From: Terebella lapidaria | Taxonomy: Eukaryota > Annelida > Polychaeta > Terebellida > Terebellidae | Direction of reading: 5' to 3' | Assembly (NCBI GenBank): GCA_949152475.1 | Contig: OX424567.1 | Location: 25,569,402-25,633,401 of the forward strand | Length of the DNA: 64,000 nt | In this document: positions 5,567-52,242 of the stretch, piece by piece | How the letters are laid out: each line of letters begins with the position of its first letter | Numbering within the stretch: the stretch's first letter is position 1 | Notes under the pieces: model-generated | The model's database searches: none | What the model saw: only the letters and a program-made list of their open reading frames with translations | What the model was told of the DNA's origin: nothing | Position numbers and translations under genes: made by a program

Positions 5567-5608
5567 ATCTGAGCTAGTCTCGGATTATCGACCCAGACCT
5601 GACCGGCA

Positions 5609-8188: not shown

Positions 8189-8334
8189 GGGAAGGTGCTG
8201 AGGAGCAAGGACCTTCCAGACAACAGGACAACGTTCCCCGCTCCACATCTGCGGTTGTCACGACTACTGTACCGGTAACGACACCAATAACGACCCCGCA
8301 GCCGGCCCAGCCCACACCTCAGCTCCTTGAAGGG

Positions 8335-11300: not shown

Positions 11301-12720
11301 ACATCTCGGCATACAGCGTACCATCGAGAGAGTCAGGCGCCGATTCTACTGGCCCGGCTTGGCGCTGGACGTCGCCCGCTGGTGTGCCCGCTGCCCGCAA
11401 TGTGTGACCCGCAAGGGTAAACCGGCCCCAAAAAGATCGCCCCTGACACAGCTACCGACAGGAGCGCCGTTCGACAGAATAGCGATGGACATCCTCGACA
11501 CCCACAAGGTCACGGGAAGAGGCTATCGGTATGTACTAGTCGTGTCGGACTACTTTACGAAGTACACTGACGCTTTTCCGCTACGGCGACATACGGCCAA
11601 AAATGTTGCCGACACCCTGGTGAATCGGTGGATAGTCTACCACGGTGTCCCCAAAGCGGTCCATAGCGATCAAGGTACTGAGTTCGAGTCGTCCCTGTTC
11701 CGGCATGTTGTGCGTCTACTGGGCGCTAAGAAGATTCGTACGACCCCATACCGACCCCAGAGCGACGGCCAGGTTGAGCGATTCAACAGGACATTGCTCA
11801 ACATGCTGAGTGCGTTCGTCAGCGATCGTGCAAACGATTGGGACTTGCACTTGCCATATGTGTTAATGGCCTATCGAACCTCAGTACACTCGTCCACGGG
11901 ATGCACCCCGCATCTGATGGTGTATGGACACGAGTGTAACTTGCCAGTCGACCTCATGTTTCCGACCTACGACCCTGAGCCTCTACCTCCGTGTGGTCCG
12001 GAGTATGTGGAGTATTTGCGGCAAGCCATCAGAACGGCCCACGGTTTCGCCCAAGACCATCTCGCAAAAGCGGCAATTCGGCAAAAGATGGGTTATGACG
12101 CCCACGCGAAACCACGACCCCAGTTTCAACCAGGCGAACTGGTCCGGTATTATTATCTGCCACTCACGCAGAATAATAAGTTCGCTCGGCCCTGGACTGG
12201 TCCCTGGAGGATCATCGACCGTGTAACCGAGGTTGATTACCGAATCGCCCTGGTTTCCAACCCTCGGAACACTCGTGTTGTTCATCTGGATGTGCTCAAG
12301 CCATACGAAGGTGACAACCAAGCGGCCCACATCTACTCCGACCCTGTACGACCCACAGAGTCGTCAAGCAAGTCCGACCCAGAACAGTCACCCGACCCCA
12401 TGGGACTTCTCAAGGAGTTCTATTACCCTTGGGAGGTAACAGTCCAAGATCGACATACCGATTCAGACCAAACAGCCGAGTCTGATTCGCCCACGACCCA
12501 GAATCGCCAATCGCGATCTCCGACTTCATCCGGCTCAAGTCGACATCGGCAACGGAAAAGATCACACAGATCAAGTTCCGACACTCCAAAACCGGCACGC
12601 AAGACACGCAGGCAAAAGCCTGTGGTATCTTCCGACCCCGAGACAAGCGAGGCTACGCCCCCGCCTGCACGACCAAATCGACCCAGACGCAATGCACGCA
12701 GACCGGCCCGCTACAGATAA
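8335..12720 (+). CDS. pol: Pol polyprotein (protease, RT, RNase H, integrase)
   Basis: Numbered from 8335, 1461 residues; the same frame is open back to 8146, and the first ATG is at 8482. Domains in order: aspartic protease with DSGA at 120-123; reverse transcriptase with YLDD at 549-552 and the preceding MPFGLSNAPATF block; RNase H beginning near DTDAS (Asp698); integrase with an HHCC zinc finger (His983, His990, Cys1020, Cys1023) and the catalytic triad Asp1052, Asp1112, Glu1148, the last two 35 residues apart (D,D35E). A GPW-containing module resembling GPY/F follows. The last 110 or so residues are Ser/Arg/Pro-rich and basic, with no chromodomain. All catalytic residues are present, so the enzyme set looks functional. 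Expression could be by -1 frameshifting from gag or by reinitiation at 8482; no canonical slippery heptamer is seen in the overlap. Confidence 0.95.
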   Translation: MCTKCQAPTPKSASFHEGVSAPRPQRPPRGDRRPEGVSPPTANGTGTDSMSEIEWISDDGGFYAFPSGPESKLPPLHTLFRPPLDDPEIPAVINNSSATNHKCWKLPVHVGNKTIKAVLDSGAQISLLRRDQLRHVPADQRHLRSTSAIIRDVTGQSSPIDGLIDLSIQVGTNHMVVTFCVADIHDDMILGMNFFRQAHAVVNYGEGTIQVHKEILFAHKDIEANVVRMAVRRAVTVPARSEAIVELVPTSRVRVRQHPRIVQPLTTFPEETDLIMGRTLTTLNRQCVKVSVVNPADTGITLTRSDPVAIASPVESVVGALPRPGEEPDPATVDASHYRDLPPHLQEMVDRAGLAPEQHRRCANLVHQYQDTFMHPDGQLGRTQVVQHRIDTGNSAPIRQRQRRVPQAQQSIIDEEIDKMLRLGCIEPSDSPWSAQVVLVRKKNGQVRFCVDYRLLNDVTRKDSYPLPNIQDTHDALAGANYFSALDLASGYWQVEVDPSDRPKTAFATRKGLYQFKVMPFGLSNAPATFERLMETILRGYLWTRCMCYLDDVIAYGRTFDQALANLEAVLDRIRSAGLKLQPKKCELFQREILYLGFIVSGQGIRVDPNKVKAIREWPTPCEITDVRAFLGFANYHRRFIKDYAEIAEPLVALTRGECHFTWGPAQRRAFQRLRDALIKAPKLAHPTQNPEDYFILDTDASGFAVGGALSQRVNGKEIPIGFASKTLSRTQRNYCTTYRELLAVVEMVQHYRHYLWGRKFLLRTDHSSLRWLKNYSDADGMLARWLAKLQQYDFRIEHRPGKLHGNADGLSRCHSCKHQDCPGRLVTPPTDPETSSGELPVRRITVVPTQTRADLLDSDSITSPVLPQLVSARQVVRVRALDATLDGQKWLSDYSTQDIVAAQQADPSVGKVRQWILAGTKPDSREVARQGEEVKTLVSRWNLLALQDGVLVRHIKPDPAGRPVVQTVLPVALRTQVLHQLHDLKIVGHLGIQRTIERVRRRFYWPGLALDVARWCARCPQCVTRKGKPAPKRSPLTQLPTGAPFDRIAMDILDTHKVTGRGYRYVLVVSDYFTKYTDAFPLRRHTAKNVADTLVNRWIVYHGVPKAVHSDQGTEFESSLFRHVVRLLGAKKIRTTPYRPQSDGQVERFNRTLLNMLSAFVSDRANDWDLHLPYVLMAYRTSVHSSTGCTPHLMVYGHECNLPVDLMFPTYDPEPLPPCGPEYVEYLRQAIRTAHGFAQDHLAKAAIRQKMGYDAHAKPRPQFQPGELVRYYYLPLTQNNKFARPWTGPWRIIDRVTEVDYRIALVSNPRNTRVVHLDVLKPYEGDNQAAHIYSDPVRPTESSSKSDPEQSPDPMGLLKEFYYPWEVTVQDRHTDSDQTAESDSPTTQNRQSRSPTSSGSSRHRQRKRSHRSSSDTPKPARKTRRQKPVVSSDPETSEATPPPARPNRPRRNARRPARYR

Positions 12721-18954: not shown

Positions 18955-19615
18955 GTAATCAGACGCCTCAAGGAAGCACATTGATACAGGATATAATGCT
19001 CGACACTATATATTCATTATATTACAGAGGCAAACAGAGTGGGTTCCTATAATTTCACGTTTTTGACAATATAATTTGCATATAACACACTCATTCACTC
19101 CATTGCATTATTCATACAAAGAATAAACTTGCACAATTGTTTCAAATTTTCTCCCTTTGTATTGAATAGATTTCTCATTTGATAGCATGATGGGTTCCTT
19201 AAAAATGTTTGTGGTATAAGCCTTTGTCTGTCATTGTGAAAAAACGTACAATTGGAAATATAATGGAATTCATCTCCCAATTCATTTAGATTACATTTTT
19301 TACAAAGTCGCTGAGTTCTGTCTATGCCATGAATATATCCTTTTCAATTGGGAGTTTGGGACTCCTAACAGCGAAATCTACAAAATATAATGCGCCATCG
19401 CTGGGGCAGTTTAACAAGATATTCCTCAAGTTTGAAATCTGTCTTAAATATTCGGTAATTTATGCATTTACTCGAGTCGAAGACAATACTTTCCGATTCT
19501 TGTTTGAATTGATCATTTGTAATTTGTAAAATCGTTTGTTTCAACCATTCAGGATTTATATTTGACGCTTGAGTCGTCCATACGTAGGATAAACCGCATT
19601 TGTCTAATAAACCGC
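18955..19615 (-). pseudogene. C-terminal remnant of a LINE ORF2
   Basis: Minus-strand frames read, from 19610 downward, INPEWLKQTILQI, CINYRIFKTDF, LEEYLVKLP, then after a frame change LPIEKDIF, then after another change RLCKKCNLNELGDEFHYI and SNCTFFHND. The order tryptophan block, YRIFK, (K)LPIE, C-x2-C...DEFHY...C is the usual C-terminal end of LINE ORF2 proteins with a CCHC-type motif. At least one 1-bp frameshift (about 19340) disables it. No reverse transcriptase domain remains, so it is 5'-truncated. It sits between the left part of dispersed element copy 1 and its minisatellite. Confidence 0.75.
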
Positions 19616-19624
19616 ATTTGGCGT

Positions 19625-20440
19625 AAATATTTTCACCTGGGTGTGAACGTTTGCACCCCTGTGTGAGTGTTTGATCCCGGATGTGGAGGTTTGCACCTGG
19701 ATGTGAAGGTTTGCACATGGGTGTGGAGGTTTGCACCCGGGTGTGAAGGTTTGCACCCGGGTGTGAAAATTTGCACCCGGGTGTGAAGGTTTGCACCCGG
19801 GTGTGAAAATTTGCACCCGGGTGTGAAGGTTTGCACCCGGGTGTGAAGGTTTGCACCCGGGTGTGAAAATTTGCACCCGGGTGTGAAGGTTTGCACCCGG
19901 GTGTGAAGGTTTGCACCCGGGTGTGAAGGTTTGCACCTGGGTGTGAAAATTTGCACCAGGGTGTGAAGGTTTGCACCCGGGTGTGAAGGTTTGCACCCGG
20001 GTGTGAAAATTTGCACCCGGGTGTGAAGGTTTGCACCTGGGTGTGAAGGTTTGCACCCGGGTGTGAAAATTTGCACCCGGGTGTGAAGGTTTGCACCCGG
20101 GTGTGAAGGTTTGCACCTGGGTGTGAAAATTTGCACCCGGGTGTGAAGGTTTGCACCCGGGTGTGAAAATTTGCACCCGGGCGTGAAGGTTTGCACCCGG
20201 GTGTGAAAATTTGCACCCGGGTGTGAAGGTTTGCACCCGGGTGTGAAGGTTTGCACCTGGGTGTGAAGGTTTGCACCCGGGTGTGAAGGTTTACACCCGG
20301 GTGTGAAGGTTTACACCCGGGTGTGAAGGTTTGCACCCGGATGTGAAGGTTTGCACCTGGGTGTGAAGGTTTGCACCTGGGTGTGAAGGTTTGCACCTGA
20401 GTGTGGAGATTGCACCTGAGTGTGAAGATTTGCACCTGGA
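19625..20440. repeat. 20-bp minisatellite (family 1) in copy 1
   Basis: About 40 units of GAAGGTTTGCACCCGGGTGT. Many units carry GAAAAT in place of GAAGGT, and the two types are interspersed in a non-random order (often one GAAAAT after one or two GAAGGT). Each unit contains the palindrome CACCCGGGTG. The outermost units are degenerate. The minus strand is open in all three frames because the unit lacks stop codons. Confidence 0.95.
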
Positions 20441-21093
20441 TGTAAATGGATGGCGGATTTGATACACCATAGGATAGACTGTCCGTGAAACTTCATAACT
20501 AAAAACCAACTTACCACAATGCACAATATCAAAAGAAAATTGCTCTGACATCGAACATTACAACTTTCATATTTTGTTGCAGTCTACGCGAAGAAAATTA
20601 TTTACAACTTGTTCACAATATTCTGATACGCGTTTGAAAATTAGTTAGTGACTTTAGTTATCTGTACATGCTGAAATAAAATTATAAGAATTATATTATG
20701 AAAGTTTATAAAATATACATCAGTAGGCGTAAACATATATATATAAATAAAAAGATGTACATCTTTCACAAAACGACGATAAGTTTTCATTCTACAGACC
20801 TGGAGTATACATTTACATCAAACCTAAACTTTATGTTATGCACGCAAGCACTAAGCCATCAAAATACTACATTTGGTAACTATCCCGAAACAAGCCACTA
20901 ATAATACGTAACACAAGTGGAAAATTGTAAAGTTCCTACAGTTACATATCGAATCTAGGGCACCCACTTTCCATCTAACATTACACACCATGTTTAATAG
21001 GTATACGTGTGTACCTTACATGGAACAAAATATATGGGGGCATTCTTCCGTTTCAATTCTGATGTGTTGTCAATCCATCTCAAGCCGGAACTG
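20441..21093. other. Element right flank and 3' end of the receptor gene
   Basis: To about 20735 this is the right flank of the dispersed element. After that no repeat is recognised. On the minus strand ATTAAA at 20998-20993, about 95 bases past the stop codon at 21094, is the best candidate poly(A) signal for the Schlafen-like gene. Confidence 0.5.
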
Positions 21094-23382
21094 CTACGCA
21101 CTGTTATTGAAGTGTAGCCCACTGCGCACGTCTTGTCCTCCGGAGCCCACGTACACAATGTCCAGCCTTCTGACGGTTCTAGAGGCTATCGCAGTCAAGT
21201 ACTTGGGGTTGTCCAGCAGGAGTCGGCACTTGGTTTCACTCTCGTCGACGACGACTAGGATCACAGCTGTATATGTGACGTTGATGGAGGAGAAAATCTC
21301 CGCCGTATAAACGTTCCACATTGGCCCCGCTCTTAAAGCAGTTGAAATTTCAGCAATGTAGTTTCGATTGCCAATGGAGTCGACGTCAATGACGACTGCG
21401 ATGTTTGCGTCTGCATAGATGAGCCAGTCCCAGTTAGCAATAGACACCAGATGATCAACTAAGATCGTCACGTGTTCTGCGATAGCTTTTGGTGTAGAAT
21501 CATCAGGTAAAATATGAAGCATGATGTCATCGCCGTCTGGGGCACATGACTTCGAGAATTTCTCGTCCAGGACATAAAGCTTTCTTTTTTTCTTCTCCAA
21601 GGACTTTATGAATGATGCTATTTTACAACATGCACGCTGAATGCCGGATATGTGAATGATGTGGCATTCAATTCCAATGTTGTCCCGGCTGTGAGACTTG
21701 AAAGCATTTGTGATAACGTCTGCTGCTCTGGACAGATCTTGGTCCAATTCATGAACGTCTACACACAGAATAGTATGCGTTTCGTCCTGAACAGAGTGAA
21801 GGTCACGGAAAAAGTTTTCCCAGTCAATTTCGCTTTCAAATCTTGGATTGCCGCCAAGATCGATGTCAATGACCACACAGTTTTTCTTTGAGGTTGCGGC
21901 GATGAATTGATTGAGTGAATCGAAGTTCACCTGGAAAACTTCGTAGAAAGTCTCGTCTCTTATTTTCTGATACGTCTCACAGGTGTTCGTGATGAGCACT
22001 CGTATATTTTCATGCCTCTGATAGCCATTCTTCTTCGAAAGTTCTTCAACACTTCGGAGGGCAGTCCAAGTCTTCCCAGCAGAAGGGACACCTATCAGAA
22101 CCACAGAGACACTACTTTTCATGTATTTAAGAGTCTCTGTCTGTTCATCTGTCGTTGAATGACGCACAATACGTTCTGCTAAGACATTTCTTGCATACGA
22201 TTTTGACTGCAGCAGCATCTCTGTCAGTCCCACTTGCAGGGACACCCGTCCATCTTCCGTAGACACCGAGTCAGTGTGCGCAGTGAGGAGACTCGTGTCT
22301 TCCAGGCTTTCAGGTTCATCAGTGCGGGGGTGGAAGACGTAGGCACCTACATGTAAAGTGGCAACGCCAGAAACAAAGAGCAGATGCCGTTTCACAATTC
22401 TGGCAATTTCTAAGGTATATCTCTTTTCCGATGAATCAGGCTCATGTGGATAGATAGAAATGACGCTCAGTCCATGCTGACTACTGAAGCGTATAACATC
22501 TGCCAGAAGATTTGGCGAGGCTTTGATAGTGTCTTCATGTCCGAAACTTCCAGCAAAGCTTGGCATTGCTACTAACCAAGTCGCTCCGTTGACATGATCC
22601 AAATAATTCAAGAAATTTTCGTGGATTGTGCTGCCAGTCATCTGATTATCTGATCGTTTTTGTTCGAGAACGTTTTTGAGCACATCTAATGCAGGGATAC
22701 TCTGAATTCTGTCTCCAGGTGGGAATGGCTCAAATCCCGGTGGAATCTCCATCTTGGAGTTTGTTTTCATCTTACTATCATTCTGCCAGTTGGTGGTATC
22801 AGTCCAACTGAAGATCTCCGCAGTTCCCTCCAGCCTGGACAGGCTACGTCTTGGGTGATCCGCTCGACTGGGACCCTGCTTCTCTTCTTGTAACTGCTCT
22901 TGCAATCCACTGATGTTCGATTTTTTGACACTCCCAGAGGTTGTCAGCCAACAAACCTCTGGGGAAAGCGGCGTTGTCTCGTCTGCTCCAGTCCTTTGTT
23001 CCTCGTCCAGCATCGGCGGAAATAGCTTCCTCACAGTCAGATAGCAAGTTTCACGTTTTCCTTGCTTTTTGGTCGAGTGAAAGCTGATGAACATGGAAAA
23101 CGATTCTGAAGAAATGCCCCGATGATTGTTCGTAATGAATTCTTCTAGTTTGGATTCGATTTTCCTCTCCTTTCCAGGCGAGTCTATTTGGATGGCTATC
23201 ACGCCTCCGCTGGTATTCAACAAGGCATCCAAGCATCCCAGAAGTTTGCGGTTCCCTTCATTAGAGCCTGATAGATCGAGTTCACTCCACTTGAAACTGA
23301 AGGCGTAGTCAGCCACGGATAAGTCATTGTCCCTGTGCTCGTTCATTCTCTCTGCACTGGCATATTTCTTCAGCTTTTGTTT
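21094..23382 (-). CDS. Exon 6: Schlafen-like cytoplasmic region
   Basis: 762 codons in one exon after the acceptor GTTGTGTTGCCAG. Counting from the exon start: AlbA_2-type Schlafen core at 27-122 with LLNTSGG at 54-60; a Ser/Glu-rich linker; a segment near 265-350 matching the SWADL-type linker plan, although the SWAVDL block itself reads PSFAGSFG; QTETLKY and Walker A GVPSAGKT at 431-438; CVVIDI at 502-507 in the Walker B place; HTILCVDVHELD at 536-547; AIASRT near 728. The frame has no ATG at its upstream end (the first is 13 codons in), which agrees with it being an internal or terminal exon rather than a whole gene. I cannot tell whether the RNase residues of vertebrate Schlafens are kept. 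Confidence 0.85.
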   Translation of the reverse strand, partial: KQKLKKYASAERMNEHRDNDLSVADYAFSFKWSELDLSGSNEGNRKLLGCLDALLNTSGGVIAIQIDSPGKERKIESKLEEFITNNHRGISSESFSMFISFHSTKKQGKRETCYLTVRKLFPPMLDEEQRTGADETTPLSPEVCWLTTSGSVKKSNISGLQEQLQEEKQGPSRADHPRRSLSRLEGTAEIFSWTDTTNWQNDSKMKTNSKMEIPPGFEPFPPGDRIQSIPALDVLKNVLEQKRSDNQMTGSTIHENFLNYLDHVNGATWLVAMPSFAGSFGHEDTIKASPNLLADVIRFSSQHGLSVISIYPHEPDSSEKRYTLEIARIVKRHLLFVSGVATLHVGAYVFHPRTDEPESLEDTSLLTAHTDSVSTEDGRVSLQVGLTEMLLQSKSYARNVLAERIVRHSTTDEQTETLKYMKSSVSVVLIGVPSAGKTWTALRSVEELSKKNGYQRHENIRVLITNTCETYQKIRDETFYEVFQVNFDSLNQFIAATSKKNCVVIDIDLGGNPRFESEIDWENFFRDLHSVQDETHTILCVDVHELDQDLSRAADVITNAFKSHSRDNIGIECHIIHISGIQRACCKIASFIKSLEKKKRKLYVLDEKFSKSCAPDGDDIMLHILPDDSTPKAIAEHVTILVDHLVSIANWDWLIYADANIAVVIDVDSIGNRNYIAEISTALRAGPMWNVYTAEIFSSINVTYTAVILVVVDESETKCRLLLDNPKYLTAIASRTVRRLDIVYVGSGGQDVRSGLHFNNSA

Positions 23383-26300
23383 CTGGCAACACAACAGATT
23401 CGATTTGAATTTTTCTACCACCCATTAATTTCACCGTAAATGACAATACATGTATATAAAATATGTACACCATTTTATGTATAGTTAACATTTTCAAACT
23501 TGAGGGAAAACTGTTAACTAGAATGTCCTGTTTCTCACTCGTTTCCAGATGTAGCCTCTTATGTATAAGAATCCGATGCCCACAACTAGGAATACACCCA
23601 GTACAGGGATCACGCCTGCCAGATTTCTTTTCCATTCTCCAATGGCTTTGAGAAATGGAGAAATGCAGAAATGCAGAAAGAGGCTTATAGAATATCATGT
23701 GTACGCGTGCACCAAATGTATTATGTTTGGTATCCTAGAGTGGCCATGTCGTTCTGTCTTCATGTCGGGGCGACAGTAAGACACGACAATACGATGGCAC
23801 GACACGACGGCACGACAGTACGACAGGACAACGCGACAGCACGACACGACGGCAAGACAGTACGACACGACAAGGCGACAGTACGACACGACAAGGCAAC
23901 AGAAGGACACGACAATACAGAAAAATATATTTATACGTCGCTTCGTTTTGTCGTGAAGGCGTTCTCGCGGTTCGCTGAGTGGCATACCTCCACTTGGGAT
24001 AGAGCCGCAACCCCGAGTGCTGTTCCTCCACCAAGACTCGTCAAATGTGGTTTATCCCGGATTCCCAGTAGCCCATACATGTTCATGCACTTTGAGTATC
24101 CCAGTCATCCCTGAATATGACACGTTAAACAAAATATGCTGGCCGCTATCGAGCAGTGCACGACATTCACCAATATCTAATTTGATTGATAAGGTGATTC
24201 CCTCGAATCGAGCTTTCCGTTACTAGTCACATATCTGTTTACATGTTTTGTGTTATGTCATATTACATGTAGGGTTTAAAGCATAGAGACAATGTGATCA
24301 ACAAAGATATTTTGTAATCATTACAAATTCCTTATATCTAATTTGCATATCTGTTTTTTCTTGGTTTTACAAGTGTTGTGGTGTAACACTTTATCCCTAA
24401 ATGTTTTATCGGGCATATTGTAAACGTGAAGGTCAGGGAGCATTTTTGTTGGGTTTTTACTATATACATATCTTTTAAGGATTTTTACTATATAGTTTTT
24501 TGGAGAACATGTATCCTACGGTGGCGAATACATTTTGTAATCCTTATTCACCCCTTATATGTGTAATTTGCTCATATGTGGTTGATATTGATATCATCGG
24601 GGATATGGTGACCGTTCAAATCAGGAAGCATAATTTGTGTTGGGAGTTTCACGGTTTAGTCCATATTTGGGGATTATTTTTTTCGGATAGCCAAATGTAA
24701 TTCAATAAAGGAATTTCATTCAATGTATGTATGCGTGTATCTCAGTCTACAATTACATACAAAACAACAATACACAGCACGGTGTTACCTAACAATAGTT
24801 CATATGGCTCAGGTCAAACAAACAATCGTAAGGCCTCCGACAAGTTGCTATCTAAACATACATAATGTGCTTGTATTTGTTGTCTGAATATGGCAGCACT
24901 GTCAGGTACATATCCGTTGGCGGGGATCTTACCACATTCTTTTGTGTTTGTCGTACATACTAATCGAAAACGCCAGCGCGACAGAACGAAACGACCTACA
25001 AATATTTGTCATAAAGGTGTCGTTTGGTATCATACCGTCGTGTCGTTTTGTCTTCTTGGTGTGTCGTTCTGTCGCTTCGTACTGTCGTGTAGTCCTGTCG
25101 TTCTGTCTTGGTGTACACGTGTTCACTGCATGAGAATGTGCGCATGCACAGAAACTTGCCATGGGACCGCCATCGCGACAACACGAAACGAAATAACGGC
25201 ATTTTGTGTAATTTTGTTGCATCGTTGTGTTGTTGTATTGTGTCGTTATATCGTCTCTTCGTATCGTAGTGTCGTCTTGTCGTATCGTTCCATCGTGCTG
25301 GCGTGTCGTTCCGTCGTACTGTCGTGTCGTATTGTCTCGCCGTCGTGTCGCTGTGTCGTATTGTCGCTCGGTAGTGTCACCCCGACATGACGACTATACG
25401 ACATGACCACTTTAGGACACCATAATTATGGGATGTTCACCCCATAGCGTGTGGTACAGCTTGTGTTTATATATGAGTTTTAACTGTCCACTCACCTTCT
25501 GTTGACATACATCGCTTTGTAATAGTGATAGTTTCCATATTTTGTACTGCAAATTTCAGGACAATGACCAGATCAGAGGTCGGTTGAATAGTCACATTTC
25601 TGGAAGAGCAAAAGGAAAATATCGTCAGCCATATGTACATTCTCGTGATACAAGCGTTTAGGTAAGATGCCAATATTTCAAATTCGGGAAATTCATCTTC
25701 ACAAAAAGTTCAAAAATCCATCAGGAATCCATACCTGGAGCACGACCTGTTGTGCATACAAGGTGGGTGGTTCTCCTCTAGGCTGGAGATGTGGATGGCT
25801 AGAGGCTGGGGTGACTTTGTTGCCACGGTGACGGTGACGGTCTCTTGTATCGTGGACGTGTTGCAGTATCTTGGACGGAGGTATATGGTACTCTCCGCGC
25901 CATTAATCTGGTGACTTTCGTCTCCAGTCTGAATCTTTATCTCGAAATCAGACCCTACGATATGTACGAAGGAACTTCTGTTCAGCGGTTTGTGTTCATT
26001 ATAATATTCACAATGACCTACCTCATGTAGTTTTGTTGTGTATTTTCATTGAGTACGATACTTGACAAGACCATCAATACATACCTTTGACGACGGACAG
26101 CATGGATTTGTCAATGATGCGGAAGTCTGCAAGGCCATCATGATTGGCGTCAGTGGGATCCATCACCCACAGGTGGTAGTGACCGGCGTCATGCGGGTTG
26201 ACATGCTTGAGTCTGATGGTTCCACTGCCCTCGGAGTCCACATACTCAACCCGCAACTCGTGTGTGCCACGGATGAGGACTTGATGGCTCGCCGTCCGAT

Positions 26301-26990
26301 TACATTCCAGGATCTCCGTGGTGGACTCGAGGGACGACGGCTTGTACATGTAGAACAGTATCACGGGGTCGGGCCGGCTGAACCTCCAGGCGAAGGTGGC
26401 GGATGTGCCCTCCAACACTTGGATGTGGCCCGGAGTGCTCAGCCAGGGATCCTCATTTTCCTGGCCTGGAAATACATGTACGTACAAACACACCTTCCAA
26501 TACGGTACATATCTGTATACTCATGGGGAGTCTGGGGAGTCTTATGGATTTCTGAATTGGTCCTGTTGGGGAGTTAGCATACATGTACATGCGCGTATTA
26601 TTACACTTTACATGAAAGTGTTTATATGCTTTTCCTTACCATCTTCTGTAAATTTCGTTTCATATACATACAGACGTCATCGGATGGAAAACACATGATA
26701 CCAACAGCTTTATTGACATGTAGTAGTTTTTTATATGCAAGAAAAAGTGTTTTAGAATAATTTAGTGGTTTGCAGCAGAGGAACTTCCTAAATGTTCAAA
26801 TCAATACCAACAAACACAGACATGCAGCAACGGCAAAAACAGTCTTCATAGCGGCATGGCAATGAACAAAATGTGTTGAATTATCTCGGCCTTGGTTTTG
26901 TCACCGAGACCCACCTTGTATCAAGCCTGGTGGCGGGATCCACAGAAGCACCAGTACAGCCAGACGACACACGCCAAAATTTTCCGGCAT
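21094..26990 (-). CDS. Predicted Ig-domain transmembrane protein with Schlafen-like cytoplasmic half
   Basis: Six exons join without a phase conflict: 26990-26915, 26465-26085, 26017-25735, 25599-25496, 23645-23539, 23382-21094 (3240 nt, 1079 residues). Order: signal peptide 1-25, Ig-like domain to about 153, Cys-containing ectodomain to 281, transmembrane helix about 290-311, then the cytoplasmic part. That part follows the layout of long Schlafens: AlbA_2-type core (about 344-439, LLNTSGG at 371-377), a SWADL-like linker (about 575-670), and a P-loop domain with Walker A GVPSAGKT at 748-755. The Walker B position reads VVIDID, so the usual DE is DI and ATP hydrolysis may be lost. Near the C-terminus AIASRTVRRLDIVYV resembles the last helicase motif. 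Schlafen cores bind or cut RNA, so a cell-surface sensor coupled to an RNA-directed effector is my inference. The exon 3 acceptor is the least certain point. Confidence 0.75.
23539..23645 (-). CDS. Exon 5: transmembrane helix
   Basis: A 107-nt exon after a long pyrimidine tract (CTGCATTTCTCCATTTCTCAAAG), with donor AAACGA/GTGAGA. It encodes WKRNLAGVIPVLG, then a run of hydrophobic residues to FLYI, then RGYIWKR as a basic stop-transfer signal. It leaves in phase 0, which fits the next exon exactly. Confidence 0.75.
23770..23925. repeat. Intronic GACAC-type simple repeat, arm A
   Basis: Degenerate tandem of ACGACACGACGGC and ACGACAGTACG words on the plus strand, inside intron 4 of the Ig-Schlafen-like gene. 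It is complementary in sense to the array at 25018-25372. Confidence 0.8.
25018..25372. repeat. Intronic GTCGT-type simple repeat, arm B
   Basis: GTCGTGTCGT, CGTACTGTCGTGT and related words at 25018-25110 and 25215-25372, with a short stretch of opposite sense near 25150-25200. This is the same family as arm A in the reverse orientation, about 1.1 kb away in the same intron. Confidence 0.8.
25496..25599 (-). CDS. Exon 4: second ectodomain, last part
   Basis: Acceptor TTGCTCTTCCAG and donor ACAGAAG/GTGAGT are both strong. Enters in phase 2 and leaves in phase 1. The peptide begins NVTIQPTSDLVIVL, alternating hydrophobic residues as in a beta sandwich, and ends near KRCMSTE, just outside the membrane. 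Confidence 0.7.
25735..26017 (-). CDS. Exon 3: second ectodomain, first part
   Basis: Open from 26017 with phase 1 entry and phase 2 exit (donor CTCCAG/GTATGG). It carries cysteines in HCEYY, RYCNT, PPCMH and RSCSR and N-glycosylation sites NRSS, NTS and NRS. The chosen acceptor (GAGGTAG at 26018) has a weak pyrimidine tract and makes a 67-nt intron. An in-phase alternative (ATCGTAG, exon from 25954) would remove 21 residues. I recognise no domain family. Confidence 0.55.
26085..26465 (-). CDS. Exon 2: Ig-like domain
   Basis: A phase 1-1 exon, as is usual for Ig domains. The acceptor is ACATGTATTTCCAG and the donor TCAAAG/GTATGT. 127 residues. It has the core tryptophan (FAWRF) and the F-strand motif DAGHYHLWV (D-x-G-x-Y). 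Both canonical cysteines are absent: Ala/Phe occupy the B-strand place and Leu the place after Tyr. One Cys remains (ECNRT), with an N-glycosylation site next to it. A divergent V- or I-type fold without the central disulfide is inferred. Confidence 0.75.
26915..26990 (-). CDS. Exon 1: signal peptide of the Ig-Schlafen-like protein
   Basis: ATG at 26990-26988 has A at -3. The 25 codons read MPENFGVCRLAVLVLLW followed by IPPPGLIQ, a classic signal peptide (short polar start, hydrophobic core, Gly/Pro before the cut). The donor ATACAAG/GTGGGT is in phase 1. This start is chosen because no other ATG in reach gives a signal sequence that splices in phase to the Ig exon. Confidence 0.75.
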
Positions 26991-28132: not shown

Positions 28133-31100
28133 CTTGCAATGTTTTTTATGGCCGTATGCGTTGACGGTTCATAATGATTGAGTTAATGATTGAGTTTTGA
28201 CAATCGACACAACCATGCGTCCGGAATTATATTTTATTACATACATATTCATGATCACAAACCGTAGCATGCACACATCAACAAACTGAGCACAAGTGAA
28301 AGACGGTCCACTTATTCTGATTGCTCGTTAGTCAGCACACTGGTGCCCGGACCTATCCACTACCCCCCCCCCCCCACAACCCCCTCCCCTCACGTGTATG
28401 ATTTTGTCCATTAGGAGCTACTAAATGACAGAAAACATGTTAACAGTAGAACTATTGGGGTACCATGTTCAATTGTTTTCACCCTGGTGTAAATATTTTC
28501 ACCCTGGTGTAAATATTTTCACCAGGGTGTAAATATTTTCACCAGGGTGTAAATATTTTCACCAGGGTGTGAAGATTTGCACCCGGGTGTGAGGGTTTGC
28601 ACTGGGGTGTGAAGGTTTGCCCTAAGGCGTGAAGGTTTGTGCCCAGGTGTGAAGGTTTGCACCCGGGTGTGAAGGCTTGCACCCGGGTGTGAGGGTTTGC
28701 ACTGGGGTGTGAAGGTTTGCCCCAAGGTGTGAATGTTTGCACCCAAGTGTGAAGGTTTGCACCTGGGTGTGAAGGTTTGCATATGGGTTTGAATGTTTGC
28801 ACTGGTGTGTGAAGGTTTGCCCCAAGGTGTGAAGGTTTGCACCCGGGGGTGAAGGTTTGTGCCCAGGTGTGAAGGTTTGCACCCGGATGTGAAGGTTTGC
28901 ACCTGGGTGTGAAGGTTTGCACTGGGGTGTGAATGTTTGCACACGATAGTGAAAATTTGCACCTGGGTGTGAATGTTTGCACCCGGGTGTGAAGGTTTGC
29001 ACCTGCGTGTGCAGGTTTGCACCTGGGTGTGAAGGTTTGCACTAGGGTGTGGAGGTTTGCACCTGGGTGTGAAGGTTTGCACCCAAGTGTGAAGGTTTGC
29101 CCCAAGGTGTGAAGGTTTGCACCCGGGTGTGAAGGTTTGTGCCCAGGTGTGAAGGTTTGCACCCGGGTGTGAAGGTTTGCACTGGGGTGTGAATGTTTGC
29201 ACACGATAGTGAAGATTTGCACCTGGGTGTGAATGTTTGCACCCGGGTGTGAAGGTTTGCACCTGGGTGTGAATGTTTGCACCCAACTGTGAAGGTTTGC
29301 ACCCGGGTGTGAAGGTTTGCAACTGGGTGTGAATGTTTGCACCCAAGTGTGAAGGTTTGCCCCAAGGTGTGAAGGTTTGCACCCGGGTGTGAAGGTTTGT
29401 GCCCAGGTGTGAAGGTTTGCAACCGGGTGTGAAGGTTTGCACCTGGGTGTGAATGTTTGCACCCAAGTGTGAAGGTTTGCCCCAAGGTGTGAAGGTTTGC
29501 ACCTGGGTGTGAATGTTTGCACCCAAGTGTGAAGGTTTGCCCCAAGGTGTGAAGGTTTGCACCCGGGTGTGAAGGTTTGTGCCCAGGTGTGAAGGTTTGC
29601 ACCCGGGTGTGAAGGTTTGCACCTGGGTGTGAATGTTTGCACCCAAGTGTGAAGGTTTGCCCCAAGGTGTGAAGGTTTGCACCCGGGTGTGAAGGTTGGT
29701 GCCCAGGTGTGAAGGTTTGCACCCGGGTGTGAAGGTTTGCACAGGGGTGTGAATGTTTGCACACGATAGTGAAGATTTGCACCTGGGTGTGAATGTTTGC
29801 ACCCGGGTGTGAAGGTTTGCACCTGCGTGTGCAGGTTTGCACCCAGGTGTGATGTTTTGCGCTAGGGTGTGGAGGTTTGCACCCGGGTGTGAAAGTTTGC
29901 ACCCAAGTGTGAAGGTTTGCACCCGGGTGTGAAGGTTTGTACCTGGGTGTGAATGTTTGCACCCAGGTGTGAAGGTTTGCACCCGGGTGTGAAGGTTTGT
30001 GCCCAGGTGTGAAGGTTTGCACCCGGGTGCCAAGGTTTGCACCCAGGTGTGGAGGTTTGCACCTGGGTGTGAAGGTTTGCACCCAAGTGTGAAGGTTTGT
30101 ACCTGGGTGTGAATGTTTGCACCCGGGTGTTAAGGTTTATACCTGGGTGTGACGGTTTGCCCTGAGTTGTGAAGGTTTGCACCCGGGTGTGAAGGTTTGC
30201 ACCTGGGTGTGAAGATTTGCACCCAAGTGTGAAGTTTTGCACCCGGGTGTGAAGGTTTTACCCTAGTGTGAAGGTTTGCACCCGGGTGTGAAGGTTTGTA
30301 CCTGGGTGTGAATGTTTGCACCTGCGTGTAGAGGTTTGCACCTGGGTGTGAAGGTTTGCGCTGGGGTGTGAAGATTTGTACCTGGGTGTGAAGGTTTGCG
30401 CTGGTGTGTGAAGGTTTGCACATGGGTGTGATGGATTGCACCTGGGTGTGAAGATTTGCACCTGGGTGTGAAGGTTTGTACCTGGGTGTGACGGTTTGCC
30501 CTAAGGTGTGAAGGTTTGCACCTGGGTGTGAATGTTTGTACCCAAGTGTGAATGTTTGCACCCGGGTGTGAAGTTTTGTACCTGGGTGTGAATGTTTGCA
30601 CCTGCATGTAGAGGTTTGCACCTGGGTGTTAAAGTTTGCACTGGGGTGTGAAGATTTGTGCCTGGGTATGAAGGTTTGCGCCGGTGTGTGAAGGTTTGCA
30701 CATGGGTGTGAAGGATTGCACCTTGGTGTGAAGATTTGCACCTTGGTGTGCAGGTTTGTACTTGCCCTAAGGTGTGAAGGTTTGCTCCCGGATGTGAAGG
30801 TTTGCGCCTGGGTGTGAAGGTTTGCACTGGGGTGTGAAGGTTTGCACACGGGTGTGAAGGTTTGCACTTTGGTGTGAATGTTTGCGCCTGGGTGTGAAGG
30901 TTTGTACCTGGGTGTGAAGGTTTGCCCTCGATTGTGAAGGTTTGCAACTGGGTGTGAAGGTTTGCCCCTGCGTTTAAAGGTTTGCAACCGGGTGTGAAGG
31001 TTTGCACCCGGGTTTGAAGGTTTGCCCCCGGGTGTGAAGGTTTGCAACCGGGTGTGAAGGTTTGCAACCGGGTGTGAAGGTTTGCACCCGGGTTTGAAGG

Positions 31101-31345
31101 TTTGCACCTGGGTGTGAAGGTTTGCACCTGGGTGTGAAAGTTTGCACCTGGGTGTGAATATTTACACCCTGGTGTAAATGGGTGGCGGATTTGCTGCACC
31201 GTAGGTTAGACTGTCCATGACACATTGCTCGGACATTTCAACTTTCATGTTTTTGTTGCGGTCTAAGCAAAGAAAATTATCTAGAACTCATGTTCACAAT
31301 ATTCTGATACGCGTTTAAAACTAGTCAGTTAGTGAGTTTAGTTAG
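28133..31345 (+). mobile_element. Dispersed minisatellite-bearing element, copy 2
   Basis: Same plan as copy 1: left flank with CGACACAACCATGCGTCCGG, a short poly-C tract (28364-28376), CAACAGTAGAACTAT-like block, GTTTTCACCCTGGTGTAAAT, minisatellite, then TGGTGTAAATGGGTGGCGG and the right flank ending near TTAGTTAGCTCACTGG. No LINE remnant is present here, so the remnant in copy 1 was added after the family arose or lost from this copy. Confidence 0.75.
28500..31175. repeat. 20-bp minisatellite (family 1) in copy 2
   Basis: About 133 units of GAAGGTTTGCACCCGGGTGT with many variants (ACCCAAGTGT, CTGGGGTGT, CCCAAGGTGT, GCCCAGGTGT). Variants recur in fixed order: for example a block around 29100-29340 recurs around 29340-29460 and 29580-29700. 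This shows higher-order duplication of groups of units. Confidence 0.95.
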
Positions 31346-31545
31346 CTCACTGGCGTCGGAACCGGGGGGGGGGGGGCTCTGGGGGCCCGTGCCCCCTCAC
31401 TTTTTCGACAGCGGGGGCTCGAGTATGTTTGGCCCCCCCCCCCCCCCTCAGATTTTCGCGAATTTTTTTTGGCATGAAACTACATATCACCAATACGACT
31501 CTAAAACATTATATATATAGTATACATTTCCAAAAGATTTCATTT

Positions 31546-32260
31546 AAAGACCTAGTAGCATGCCGATGAAAGTGCTTTTCATTTAGTCCATTATGAATAG
31601 TTATCTGTAAATTCGAACGAATTTTACAAATACAATCAATGGGTTTTGAGATATTGAATCAAATAGGTACTCCTTCCGTAAATTGCCGAAGATTTTGATC
31701 ACGATATTAGTATGGGTCACGTGGTTTGGGACGTCATTTGAGGCAGTACTGAAAGTACATGTAGCCAGCAAGGTAAACTGCATGTCGCATATTCATTCTC
31801 GTTGTGTATGTTTGACAATTCAAGTGAACAGGTGAGATGGTTGGAGTACGGCATTTCTTGTCTTGATATTTAGAATCAGTACTATTCATTCTCCCAGAAG
31901 AGAGGTTTGTTGAACTGCAAGATGTCCAGTATTTGTTGGTTTTCATGTGTTTTCTTTTGAATCTCATGCATTTTGGAGTGGTTTTCTATCTTTGAGCTGA
32001 CCGCCCAAATTACGTGTTTTACGTTTTTGGCCAGCCATCAAAGCACATTTTGCCTCAACTGACGTCACGATTACGGAAACTGCCGAAGCTATTTTTTTCA
32101 TCGGCATGAGAAGGCGATTGCAATACTGGCTCAATATACTCGATTATATGTTGCTGTTATTAATTACCAATTAACGCGAACATCTTTTTTATCACCAAAT
32201 GTCCACAATGCCCTTATCTGAACAGGAATAAAACCATATAATGGTACCTTGCTACTATGA
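31546..32260. other. Segment present only in duplication unit A; no gene
   Basis: Unit B passes directly from TTCATTTAA (37254-37262) to TTGAATGAAAAATCACGTG, whereas unit A has about 715 bp between those points. No terminal repeats or coding frame are seen. It may be a deletion in unit B or an insertion in A. Confidence 0.5.
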
Positions 32261-32993
32261 CTTTAATTGAATGAAAAATCACGTGTCCCAGAAACCCATG
32301 GACTATGCGTAATGGATCTACTGAGAAAATCATTCCGGTTATTAAATCGCGGGAGATTTTCCAAACCTGACTCAACTAGCAACGATATAAACAACTGAAA
32401 AATGAGTAGACCCTCGATTGGACTACTCTACGGTGGGGCGGTGAAGCAGGGGTGGCAGGAAAGGTGGTCAGGGGCGCTATATAGGCCTACCCTCACATCC
32501 CCGTTAGGAAAATTGTACAAAAAAATTTTAATTTCATTGGTTAAAACTTGAGAAATATATGATTCTATCGTGAACCCTGTCTGAATTTTCCAAAAATGTT
32601 TTCTGTATACGTATAATTCGTTTACATGAAATCAAAAAGTAAAAATTCACACACATTTTGTATAGAAGAAACCGAGCAAAATTCAACAAGATCGATAAGG
32701 CCTTAATCACTGAATGATCAGAATAAAGTCATAAGAGTATTTCAAAAAGTTATGGAATCCGGAGAATGGAAGCCAGGCCTGGAGAATGGAAACCACCCGG
32801 TCAACACATGACATTACGCAACCTCACAGTGATATCACATACACCTCACACCTTTGATGTCACATTTGTGATGCCACAGGGATATCACAATGACCTCACA
32901 ACTTTGACCTCTATCGTGTTGCTCGGTTGCGATTTGTGTACATATTTTAGACCCCCCTCTCAGGGAGGTCAGACCGATTGCGAGGGAATCCTG

Positions 32994-35900
32994 CAAGTGA
33001 AAGACGGTCCACTTATTCTGATTGCTCGTTATTCAGCACACTGGTCCTATCGGACCTATCCACTACCCTCCCCCCCCCCCCCCCCACAACCCCCTCCCCT
33101 CACGTGTATGATTTTGTCCATTACGAGCTACTAAATGACATAAAACATGTTAACAGTAGAACTATTGGGGTACCATGTTCAATTGTTTTCAAACTGGTTT
33201 AAATATTTTCACCAGGGTGTAAATAATTTCACCAGGGTGTAAATATTTTCACCAGGGTGTGAAGGTTTGCACCCGGGTGTGAAGGTTTGCACTGGGGTGT
33301 GAAGGTTTGCTCTAAGGCGTGATGGTTTGTGCCCAGGTGTGAAGGTTTGCACCCGGGTGTGAAGGCTTGCACCCGGGTGTGAAGATTTGCACCCAAGTGT
33401 GAAGGTTTGCACTGGGGTGTGAAGGTTTGCCCCAAGGTGTGAAGGTTTGCACCCGGGTGTGAAGGTTTGAGCCCAGGTGTGGAGGTTTGCACCCGGGTGT
33501 GAAGGTTTGCACCCGGGTGTGAAGATTTGCACCTGGGTGTGAATGTTTGCACCCGGGTGTGAAGGTTTGCACCTTGGTGTGAAGGTTTGCACCTGGGTGT
33601 GAATGTTTGCACCCGGGTGTGAAGGTTTGCACCTGCGTGTGCAGGTTTGCACCTGAGTGTCAATGTTTGCATTAGGGTGTGGAGGTTTGTGCTGGGGTGT
33701 GAATGTTTGCACCCAGGTGTGAAGGTTTGCACCCGGGTGTGAAGGTTTGCACCTGGGTTTGAATGTTTGCACCCAAGTGTGAAGGTTTGCACCTGGGTGT
33801 GAAGATTTGCACCCAAGTGTGAAGGTTTGCACCCGGGTGTGAAGGTTTGCACCCGAGTGTGAAGGTTTGCACCCAAGTGTGAAGGTTTGCACCCGGGTAT
33901 GAAGGTTTGCACCCGGGTGTGAATGTTTGCACCCGGGTGTGAAGGTTTGCACCTGCGTGTGCAGGTTTGCACCCGGGTGTGAAGGTTTGCGCTAGGGTGT
34001 GGAGGTTTGTGCTGGGGTGTGAATGTTTGCACCCAAGTGTGAAGGTTTGCACCCAGGTGTGAAGGTTTGCACCCGGGTGTGAAGGTTTGCACCCAAGTGT
34101 GAATGTTTTCACACAAGTGTGAAGGTTTGCACCCAAGTGTGAAGGATTGCACCCGGGTGTGAAGGTTTGTGCCCAGGTGTGAAGGTTTGCACCCGGGTGT
34201 GAAGGTTTGCACTGGGGTGTGAAGGTTTGCACCCAAATGTGAATGTTCGCACCCGGGTGTGAAGGTTTGTACCCAAGTGTGGAGGTTTGCACCCGGGTGT
34301 GAAGGTTTGTACCTGGGTGTGAATGTTTGCACCCAGGTGTGAAGGTTTGCACCCGGGTGTGAAGGTTTGTGCCCAGGTGTGAAGGTTTGCACCCGGGTGT
34401 GAAGATTTGCACGCAAGTGTGAATGTTTGCACCCGGGTGTGAAGGTTTGTACCTGGGTGTGACGGTTTGCCCTAAGGTTGGAAGGTTTGCACCTGGGTGT
34501 GAATGTTTGCACCCAAGTGTGAAGGTTTGCACCCGGGTGTGAAGGTTCGTACCTGGGTGTGAAGGTTTGTACCTGGGTGTGACGGTTTGCCCTAAGGTGT
34601 GAAGGTTTGCACCCAAGTGTGAATGTTTGTACCCAAGTGTGAAGGTTTGCACCCGGGTGTGAAGGTTTGTGCCCAGGTGTGAAGGTTTGCACCCGGGTGT
34701 GAAGGTTTGCACTGGGGTGTGAAGGTTTGCACCCAAGTGTGAAGGTTTGCACCCAAGTGTGAAGGTTTGTACCCAAGTGTGGAGGTTTGCACCCGAGAGT
34801 GAAGGTTTGTACCCTGGTGTGAAAGTTTGCACCTGGGTGTGAAGGTTTGCACCTGGGTGTGAAGATTTACACCCAAGTGTGAAGGTTTGCACCCGGGTGT
34901 GAAGGTTTGTACCCAAGTGTGGAGGTTTGCACCCGAGTGTGAAGGTTTGTACCTGGGTGTGAATGTTTGCACCCAGGTGTGAAGGTTTGCACCCAAGTGT
35001 GAAGGTTTGCACCCGGGTGTGAAGATTTGCACGCTAATGTGAATGTTTGCACCCGGGTGTGAAGGTTTGTACCTGGGTGTGACGGTTTGCCCTAAGGTGT
35101 GAAGGTTTGCACCTGGGTGTGAATGTTTGTACCCAAGTGTGAAGGTTTGCACCCGGGTGTGAAGGTTTGTACCCGGGTGTGAAGGTTTGTACCCGGGTGT
35201 GAAAGTTTGCACCCGGGTGTGAAGGTTTGCACCTGGGTGTGAAGATTTGCACCCAAGTGTGAAGGTTTGCACCCGGGTGTGAAGGTTTGTACCCAAGTGT
35301 GGAGGTTTGCACCCGAGTGTGAAGGTTTGTACCTGGGTGTGAATGTTTGCACCCAGGTGTGAAGGTTTGCACCCAAGTGTGAAGGTTTGTACCCGGGTGT
35401 GAAGATTTGCACGCAAGTGTGAATGTTTGCACCCGGGTGTGAAGGTTTGCACCCGGGTGTGAAGATTTGCACGCAAGTGTGAATGTTTGCACCCGGGTGT
35501 GAAGGTTTGTACCTGGGTGTGACGGTTTGCCCTAAGGTGTGAAGGTTTGCACCTGGGTGTGAATGTTTGCACCCAAGTGTGAAGGTTTGCACCCGGGTGT
35601 GGAGGTTTGTACCTGGGTGTGAAGGTTTGTACCTGGGTGTGACGGTTTGCCCTAAGGTGTGAAGGTTTGCACCTGGGTGTCGATGTTTGTTCCCAAGTGT
35701 GAAGGTTTCCACCCGGGTGTGAAGGTTTGTACCCGGGTGTGAAGGTTTGTACCCGGGTGTGAAAGTTTGCACCCGGGTGTGAAGGTTTGCACCTGGGTGT
35801 GAAGATTTGCACCCAAGTGTGAAGGTTTGCACCCGGGTGTGAAGGTTTGTACTTGGGTGTGACGGTTTGCCGTAAGGTGTGAAGGTTTGCACCTGGGTGT

Positions 35901-49060: not shown

Positions 49061-49152
49061 GTATATAACATTATCATCTATATACTATCCCGAACATGCT
49101 GGCAAATTTTATATACATATTTTTATGTATATTTTATATACATTGCTTCAAG

Positions 49153-49988
49153 ATGGCGGCCGCCAAAGGTGGTGTGATTTTTTCGTGCTGTTTTTTAATA
49201 GTTTTAGTGAAAATTATAAATGCTCTACAGTGTACCAGCAATGAATATGATCAGAAACACCGTGTTGAATGCTGTGAGAACTACCTTGTGTCGAAAAATG
49301 GCAAGAACTTCGACTACGGACAGGGGATAGTGTACCTTCGCCTATTATCGCTCAGGGCGGATCACGTCAAGGTCAAAAGCCAGAAATGTCAAGTACGTTC
49401 AGTGACTTCATACTCATCAAATTCACCGTGGTCTACTTCGAATCAAACCAAGAACTGTCTGGTTACTCCCTCTAAAGCTAGTAAAATCCTGCGAACTGTG
49501 GTTGTAACACTGCTACTGTGCGGGGATATTCATCCTTGCCCTGGACCTATCAAACGTACACCGAAATACCCCTGCACAACCTGTAACAAGGCAGTGAGAT
49601 CCAATAGTAAGGCCATCTCATGTGACTCGTGTGAGCAATGGACTCATGCTAGATGTGCTGGCATTTCGACACAGAAGTACGATGAGACAGCCAGGTCAGG
49701 TGATGACATCAGCTTCACGTGCGACAGGTGTACGATCTCAGATATGCCGGGCCCAGACTTGTTTGATGACCCGGATAGTGACACCCCACCGGACGCCACG
49801 ACTGAAGATTCCACGCCTCGCGGGAAAGAGGATGACGACACCTACACACGCTTTGACGCCAAGGGCCTTCACTTCCTACATATAAACATTCGCAGTATGC
49901 TTCCCAAAATGGACGAGCTCCGCCTCATCGCTACGCGCACCAAGGCAGCAGTCATCGGGCTATCGGAGACGTGGATTGATGGTTCCGT
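49153..49988 (+). pseudogene. LINE polyprotein, 5' part (PHD finger, start of endonuclease)
   Basis: The ATG at 49153 (AAGATGG context) is preferred to the in-frame ATG at 49096, which lies in host target sequence. A hydrophobic stretch follows (VIFSCCFLIVLVKIINALQ), then a C4HC3 PHD-type finger at residues about 141-193 (CTTC, CDSC, HARC, CDRC), an acidic linker, and the endonuclease start with LHINIRSML and GLSETWIDG. The frame then enters the inserted LTR and stops at 50167-50169. PHD fingers in such elements are thought to bind chromatin or nucleic acid. Confidence 0.85.
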
Positions 49989-52238: not shown

Positions 52239-52242
52239 CCGT

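Follow-up and report, generated by a model that had tools for sequence, protein, structure and literature searches.

We examined a 64,000-base window of the genome of the annelid Terebella lapidaria (contig C14, bases 25569402 to 25633401, of a 761.6 Mb assembly in 438 contigs). On the minus strand of this window lies a gene of six exons, with GT-AG at every junction and compatible exon phases (1, 1, 2, 1, 0), whose joined frame is open over 1,058 amino acids. In order, it encodes a signal peptide, a 126-residue exon with the features of an immunoglobulin (Ig) domain, about 108 residues spread over exons 3 and 4, one hydrophobic helix, a run of basic residues, and an exon of 762 codons related to the Schlafen proteins. 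A first-pass annotation of the same DNA had proposed this chain of six exons with fitting phases, and every exon was recovered in place. The signal peptide, the Ig-like domain, the single helix with its basic stop-transfer, the 762-codon exon, and the Walker A motif GVPSAGKT within it are likewise present in the translation, the Ig assignment being backed by profile searches. We refer to the window gene as copy A and to its damaged tandem neighbours on C14 as copies B and C; L numbers denote other loci of the genome. The features are as follows, in window positions (A1 is the alignment of exon 6 and its paralogs, 8 sequences):

26915..26990, minus strand: exon 1, start codon and predicted signal peptide MPENFGVCRLAVLVLLWIPPPGLIQ, donor phase 1; 84% identity with tandem copy B
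26085..26465, minus strand: exon 2, phase 1-1, predicted ectodomain of Ig V-like type lacking the usual cysteine pair
25735..25954, minus strand: exon 3, first part of a second ectodomain, phase 1-2, without a recognised fold
25496..25599, minus strand: exon 4, second part of the second ectodomain, phase 2-1, with homologs in L016, L019, L021, and L045
23539..23645, minus strand: exon 5, phase 1-0, predicted single membrane span with a basic stop-transfer; equivalents at 8 of 10 diverged loci
23560..23622, minus strand: hydrophobic helix LAGVIPVLGVFLVVGIGFLYI within exon 5, from the translation
21094..23382, minus strand: exon 6, predicted cytoplasmic Schlafen-derived region (core N-lobe, linker, and degenerate superfamily 1 [SF1]-type helicase domain), 762 codons plus stop
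23203..23223, minus strand: LLNTSGG signature of the Schlafen core N-lobe; N-T-S-G-G-V invariant in 8 of 8 A1 members
22069..22092, minus strand: Walker A GVPSAGKT, from the translation, alignment, and motif scan
21850..21876, minus strand: degraded Walker B VVIDIDLGG, from the alignment; VVLDDAH in L005, L007, and L017

The hydrophobic stretch of exon 1 (LAVLVLLWI) is typical of a signal peptide, and the helix of exon 5 is followed by RGYIWKR, after which exon 6 continues with KQKLKK. With a signal peptide, an ectodomain, one span, and a basic cytoplasmic flank, the gene encodes a protein of predicted type I single-pass topology. We regard the Ig-span-Schlafen receptor architecture of this gene and its family as very probable, and a receptor seems to have been made out of an enzyme of immune type. 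Intron 4 (23739-25400) contains short tandem units of the type CGACACGACAGTACGACGG, recognised by eye; a version of them on the opposite strand lies closer to exon 5. The distance from exon 4 to exon 5 is about 190 bases in copy C versus about 1,850 in the window gene. Rfam and tRNA scans of the window gave no match.

Because the structure model of the Ig exon is too weak, its assignment rests on sequence profiles. A two-sequence profile of exon 2 and its L021 counterpart, searched against PDB sequences, matched best the Ig domain of SCN2B (E = 1.6e-4) over nearly the full length, and proteins with Ig domains by name made up 11 of the 11 rows at E ≤ 0.01 and 49 of the 52 rows overall. Pfam V-set scored 28.8 bits in the Ig exon of L045 (cut-off, 26) and stayed below the cut-off in the window exon (17.4) and in L021 (19.1); we count the family as V-set-like by way of L045 together with the exon 2/L021 profile. 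The canonical cysteines of the B and F strands are absent from all three Ig exons, with W in the B strand and L or V in the F strand by our own reading. Some Ig domains lack the canonical cysteine pair. Because the pair is missing here, we assign exon 2 from its sequence to an Ig V-like fold and not to a canonical V-set domain. Structure models were built from single sequences and for window sequences only. That of the Ig exon has a predicted local distance difference test score (pLDDT) of 55; Foldseek returned nothing for it at E ≤ 0.001, the first row being a Csp protease and most of the others V domains of T-cell receptors (TCRs) or antibodies, and by Z the top four rows were Csp proteins (9.3 to 7.4), followed mostly by TCR V domains at 5 to 6. 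A regular expression for the Ig D-x-G-x-Y pattern found nothing, though a later phase scan found the Ig exon of L021. Exons 3 and 4 matched no Pfam or other known family and gave one PDB sequence match, at E = 0.05.

Schlafen ancestry of exon 6 and its motifs

Searched alone, exon 6 matched no Pfam family above cut-off, AlbA_2 included, and against PDB sequences it matched SLFN5 only at E = 0.41. The A1 profile placed SLFN5 (E = 4.4e-8) and SLFN11 (E = 1.8e-7) at the top of the PDB sequences, with matches spanning the linker and the P-loop lobe. The core motif lined up in matching order with ALLNSGGG of SLFN5 and SLFN11, as did a stretch with the helicase C-lobe of SLFN11; neither score is significant alone. 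PF09848 (SLFN-g3_helicase) was above cut-off in L005, L007, and L017 and not in the window copy.

PF04326 (SLFN_AlbA_2) was reported at 23 places in the genome, 17 of them within open frames of 946 to 1,613 codons, and none of the 23 coincides with an exon-6-like locus. Nine of these frames were read: in seven, the first methionine lies at most 7 codons from the preceding stop; in L042, it comes at codon 38; and in L025, a long Schlafen in the region of C2:27898594 (frame from base 367), the N-terminal stretch is hydrophobic and is followed by GNVELNPGP. The latter resembles the 2A ribosome-skipping motif, and L025 could, to judge from its sequence, give two differently targeted products. An alignment of seven of the nine other long Schlafens of the genome (A4), all seven matching PF04326, matched SLFN11 at 3.6e-36 and also chains of SLFN14, SLFN5, SLFN12, and Schlafen 8. 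When the exon-6 family was compared with A4 by hhalign, the match reached E = 2.2e-52 over 555 columns, from the linker to the C terminus, and E = 3.7e-11 for the N-lobes. A maximum-likelihood tree split 8 receptor-type sequences from 9 other Schlafens, labelled cytosolic on the basis of their start codons, by one branch with 100/100 support; this tree is unrooted, and L025 and L039 are long rows of less sure placement. Given the profile matches to SLFN5 and SLFN11, the hhalign match with A4, and the tree branch, the tail encoded by exon 6 is Schlafen-derived by sequence homology. The data fit a single origin of the receptor type.

With its linker and an SF1-type helicase homologous to those of SLFN5 and SLFN11, the exon-6 family resembles the long (group III) Schlafens. 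Its AlbA_2-type core is not two-lobed: the window copy has the N-lobe only, and the C-lobe is absent in A1; the L005 group retains a C-lobe-like stretch. Because the core C-lobe is absent, we file the window protein as Schlafen-derived and not as a full group III Schlafen. The AlbA_2-type core named in the first-pass annotation therefore holds for the recognised N-lobe but not for the missing C-lobe, and Pfam AlbA_2 is unmatched in the window copy. A SWADL-like segment in exon 6 is doubtful: two candidates for the SWAVDL motif, FSWTDTTNW near residue 190 and ATWLVAM near residue 266, did not align decisively.

Neither exon 6 nor A1 found a homolog at E ≤ 0.001 in a collection of 5.8 billion proteins, in which the candidates sharing most words were scored and viral and genome contigs lay outside the search. 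A bacterial or viral origin of exon 6 was rejected within the scope of this protein search. An NCBIfam scan gave weak generic matches only. The structure model of exon 6 has a mean pLDDT of 36, with blocks between residues 28 and 120, approximately, reaching 50 to 69 in the order strand-helix-strand-helix-strand-strand; Foldseek with this model was uninformative, returning AAA proteins and assorted others with no Schlafen among the best 50 rows.

Three residues of SLFN11, E209, E214, and K216, are described as essential in the consulted part of the corresponding article (PMC9482658). We scanned the first 420 residues for the corresponding pattern E-x4-E-x-K, the catalytic signature of the nuclease-competent Schlafens (SLFN11, SLFN12, SLFN13, and SLFN14), taking the window copy, L005, L006, L007, L016, and L017 as receptor types. 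The pattern is present in 7 of 7 other long Schlafens, at an invariant place in A4, and in 0 of 6 receptor types; the C-lobe that would hold it is absent in the window copy and L016. Walker A reads GVPSAGKT in the window copy, GPPGTGKT in L005, L007, and L017, and GFPYSGKT in L016, and is broken in L006. In Walker B, the window copy has VVIDIDLGG, L005, L007, and L017 have VVLDDAH, and L006 has VVLDDKN. Because the nuclease signature is lost, and the window copy has no C-lobe and a degraded Walker B, direct cleavage of RNA by the receptor is unlikely; binding of a nucleotide by the tail is possible, judging from these motifs. The earlier proposal that outside recognition is coupled to an effector directed at RNA or nucleotides agrees with the receptor-like, Schlafen-derived architecture but not, in its direct form, with the absent signature and C-lobe.

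Paralogs, damage, and selection

Searching the genome with exon 6 yielded 22 matches. Six rows belong to the tandem cluster on C14, which comprises the window gene and its damaged copies; 13 are diverged places, and 3 are weak matches on C13. The tandem copies on C14 prove little, because they are similar in their introns as well as their exons. The 13 diverged places, on C5, C59, and C16, show 25 to 29% identity, and the DNA upstream was examined at 10 of them (L016 to L021 and L044 to L047). In 8 of the 10 (L016, L018, L019, L021, L044, L045, L046, and L047), a membrane-span exon with a basic flank and a phase-0 donor stands at most about 3.2 kb before the Schlafen-like exon, which has a phase-0 acceptor as in the window gene. 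The span exon of L016 was recognised by hydropathy and position, the other seven also by sequence, and the donors in L044 and L047 were read a few bases beyond the printed cut. Equivalents of exon 4 (phase 2-1) precede the span exon in L016, L019, L021, and L045, and in L021 and L045 these are preceded in turn by an Ig exon of phase 1-1. The alignment of exon 2 with L021 scored 83 (highest of 1,000 shuffles, 57), and that of exon 4 with L019 scored 56 (highest of 1,000 shuffles, 37). A convincing signal-peptide exon was recovered in copy B and was not found in the 4 diverged loci searched; tblastx of upstream regions against each other was swamped by repeats. Because exon order and phases recur in diverged paralogs, the comparison indicates that the fusion is more than chance and not an accident of a single locus.

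The span exons of L018 (C59) and L046 (C5) are 98% identical, and the 444 kb contig C59 may therefore be an alternative haplotype or an unplaced part of the C5 receptor cluster (C5:19.58-20.09 Mb).

Rates of nonsynonymous (dN) and synonymous (dS) change bear on whether these exons encode protein. Between the Ig exons of L021 and L045, dS is 1.49 and dN is 0.24 (dN/dS, 0.16), which indicates that the Ig exon has been kept as protein. For the Schlafen-like exons of the L005 group, dN/dS is 0.36 to 0.43 in six pairs, pointing to net purifying selection on the tail; for exon 6, it is 0.61 (A-B), 0.58 (A-C), and 0.72 (B-C). Open frames of 960 to 1,012 codons occur at 10 of 13 diverged places; the frame at C5:20055755, which is among the 10, includes one TAA. 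In copy B, 5 bases are deleted from exon 2, the membrane-span exon is incomplete, and the acceptor tract before exon 6 is gone; exon 4 was not found there. In copy C, the end of exon 6 is shifted, and exons 1 to 3 were not found in about 18 kb searched.

Several observations weigh against a maintained receptor family encoded by a single spliced chain. Exon 3 is shifted in L021, and L045 has no AG at the expected acceptor of the span exon; on these grounds, some receptor copies may be decaying. The score of exon 3 against the L021 stretch (39) was reached by 15 of 1,000 shuffles, and exon 3 was otherwise recognised in paralogs by eye only, with the frame shift in L021 and an apparent split in two in L045. 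No membrane-span exon was found upstream of L017 and L020 in the DNA covered (2 of the 10 loci). In exons 1 and 3, dN is close to dS between copies A and B, though B is damaged, and the short membrane-span exons gave dN/dS values of 0.34 to 1.73 in the 20 pairs, out of 21, for which a value could be computed. Exon 6 also has an internal methionine at residue 13, a possible start of a cytosolic form.

Large repeat arrays flank the receptor gene on both sides (19365-20492 and 28519-36999); translated on the minus strand, they show units like CKPSHPGANLHTxVQTFTPG over and over in several frames, and their long open frames are probably spurious. The plus strand of the window carries a long terminal repeat retrotransposon (5603-12720), with gag-like and protease-, reverse transcriptase-, RNase H-, and integrase-like frames, and a retrotransposon-like frame (49069-50169) with CGDIHPCPGP, near a reverse transcriptase-like frame (52226-54970); these were named by eye. 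We take CGDIHPCPGP to be perhaps a 2A-like variant. Elsewhere in the assembly, the 15,973-base mitochondrial contig reads, on one strand, nad4L-nad4-C-M-(M)-rrnS-V-rrnL-L-A-S-L-nad1-I-K-nad3-S-nad2-cox1-N-cox2-D-atp8-Y-G-cox3-Q-nad6-cob-W-atp6-H-nad5-F-E-P-T. ARAGORN found 22 tRNAs, none of them certainly tRNA-Arg; the protein genes and gap-placed rRNAs were named by our own reading. This is the gene order usual in annelids. Apart from the mitochondrial contig (C438), another COX1-like stretch, split into two pieces and containing TGA codons, lies at C417:44633-46450; it may be a nuclear copy or come from a foreign mitochondrion.

Interpretation and comparison with known systems

Schlafens have been studied as intracellular restriction factors and tRNA nucleases. 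The best explanation of the whole, which we consider likely, is a Schlafen-derived receptor family with an adaptor tail. After cleavage of the signal peptide, the Ig V-like domain and the short second domain would lie outside the cell, and the Schlafen module (core N-lobe, linker, and SF1-like nucleoside triphosphatase [NTPase]) would lie inside. The Ig domain would bind a ligand or a neighbour, clustering the receptor. The catalytically dead tail would then serve as a regulated adaptor, forming dimers with nuclease-competent Schlafens in the same cell and positioning or activating them, with nucleotide binding by the retained P-loop as a possible switch. We favour an adaptor because PUCH of Caenorhabditis elegans splits tether and catalysis (PMC10567574) and because the SLFN11 article refers, in the legend of its Fig. 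2, to dimerization-induced nuclease activity (PMC9482658); this mechanism is put forward tentatively and may well be wrong. More doubtful is the larger proposal that these are receptors of a new class, serving immunity or self-recognition in animals, whose nuclease-dead tails, once ligand is bound, bring together and activate the Schlafen nucleases of the cell itself. If true, outside recognition would be linked directly to tRNA or RNA cleavage and translation arrest, without kinases or transcription. A role of the receptor in innate immunity or self-recognition is in itself plausible. The receptor branch has diverged to about 25% identity inside one genome; if this branch is real, a receptor acquired its inner half by recruitment of a Schlafen module, and the recruitment would be old, given that divergence. 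The family offers a concrete example, open to test, of a Schlafen machine connected to a signal from outside, and one organism provides receptor-type (nuclease-dead) and other Schlafens (signature intact) as a natural set.

Other readings place the function elsewhere in the protein. STAND NTPases act as switches that oligomerise on ligand binding, and a P-loop NTPase tail behaving likewise could signal in a self-contained way, without Schlafen partners. Consistent with this, the window copy and 4 of 5 other receptor types scanned have an intact Walker A, VVLDDAH is retained in L005, L007, and L017, and nSTAND3 matches 7 of 8 A1 members at E ≤ 1 (best, 6.1e-9). However, the nSTAND3 match is unspecific, since many AAA families match the same P-loop stretch, and the degraded Walker B of the window copy and the broken Walker A of L006 make self-contained signalling somewhat unlikely. 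Alternatively, the Ig ectodomain might be the working part of an adhesion or self-recognition protein, with the Schlafen tail as a structural or regulatory remnant. The several related places on C14, C5, and C59 and the fast protein change (dN/dS of 0.61 for A-B, 0.58 for A-C, and 0.36 to 0.43 in the L005 group) would suit such a protein, which we nevertheless think unlikely: the L005-group tail is under apparent net purifying selection with Walker A and B intact in 3 of 4 members, and the only comparable pair of Ig exons is conserved (dN/dS, 0.16).

The remaining two readings concern the gene itself. A family in decay, with real exons and receptors that are mostly pseudogenes without present function, would accord with the damage in copies B and C, exon 3 of L021, the acceptor of L045, and the TAA at C5:20055755. 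This is improbable in view of the intact six exons of the window copy, dN/dS values well below 1 in the L005 group and of 0.16 for the Ig exon pair, and the 960- to 1,012-codon frames open at 10 of 13 diverged places, one with a TAA. Finally, two genes might have been read as one, an Ig membrane protein ending after exon 5 and an intronless Schlafen starting inside exon 6. Reading through from exon 5 reaches a TAG 18 bases beyond the donor, likewise in copies B and C; exon 6 has its early methionine; and the acceptor tract before it is lost in copy B. However, eight diverged paralogs keep the phase-0 donor after the span and the phase-0 acceptor, with a Schlafen-like exon that has no initial methionine, unlike the 7 of 9 other Schlafen frames whose first methionine lies at most 7 codons from the preceding stop. 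We rejected the two-gene reading as the main account on the recurrence of this phase-0 junction, and its probability is very small.

The receptor type shares the order of core N-lobe, linker, and SF1-type helicase domain with the long (group III) Schlafens SLFN5, SLFN11, SLFN13, and SLFN14. It differs from them in its signal peptide, Ig ectodomain, and span, in the loss of the nuclease signature, and, in the window copy, in the absence of the core C-lobe. The first-pass annotation had described the animal Schlafens known to it as soluble, to which the membrane-held SLFL-3 and SLFL-4 of C. elegans are an exception (PMC10567574). In the excerpts of that article, a C-terminal transmembrane helix of SLFL-3/4 takes PUCH to mitochondria, and the membrane-bound SLFL-3/4 tethers the nuclease subunit TOFU-2. 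This resembles the proposed receptor in that a Schlafen fold is held by one helix and a separate Schlafen-fold subunit is catalytic. In contrast, SLFL-3/4 have a single Schlafen fold, a C-terminal helix, and a mitochondrial location, and the same excerpts mention no ectodomain, signal peptide, or helicase domain for them (PMC10567574). The window protein is not of the PUCH type, its span lying N-terminal to the Schlafen part, after a signal peptide and ectodomain. SAMD9 and SAMD9L likewise carry an AlbA-type domain followed by an NTPase; their abstract names a variant Sir2 domain, (PMC5445408), of which the complete set of Pfam matches for the window copy shows none.

No protein with a signal peptide, Ig domain, span, and Schlafen module occurs among the matches listed in the open full-text literature, a scope outside which subscription papers and annotated animal proteomes lie; within it, the earlier remark that no described protein of this architecture was known is borne out. 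In the portions consulted of two Schlafen articles, the word "transmembrane" is absent from one (PMC8789055) and found a single time, among the references, in the other (PMC8875196). Proteins of this kind may well be present in the automated annotations of other annelids. Ig surface receptors and adhesion proteins, of which SCN2B, CEACAM, and CAR were among the PDB matches, share the V-like Ig domain and type I topology with the receptor type, whose three Ig exons, unlike theirs, have no canonical cysteine pair and whose cytoplasmic part is a Schlafen module. Set beside these systems, the sequences combine known domains into a receptor arrangement that is unreported and has been maintained in evolution, and their Schlafen tail is derived and nuclease-dead.

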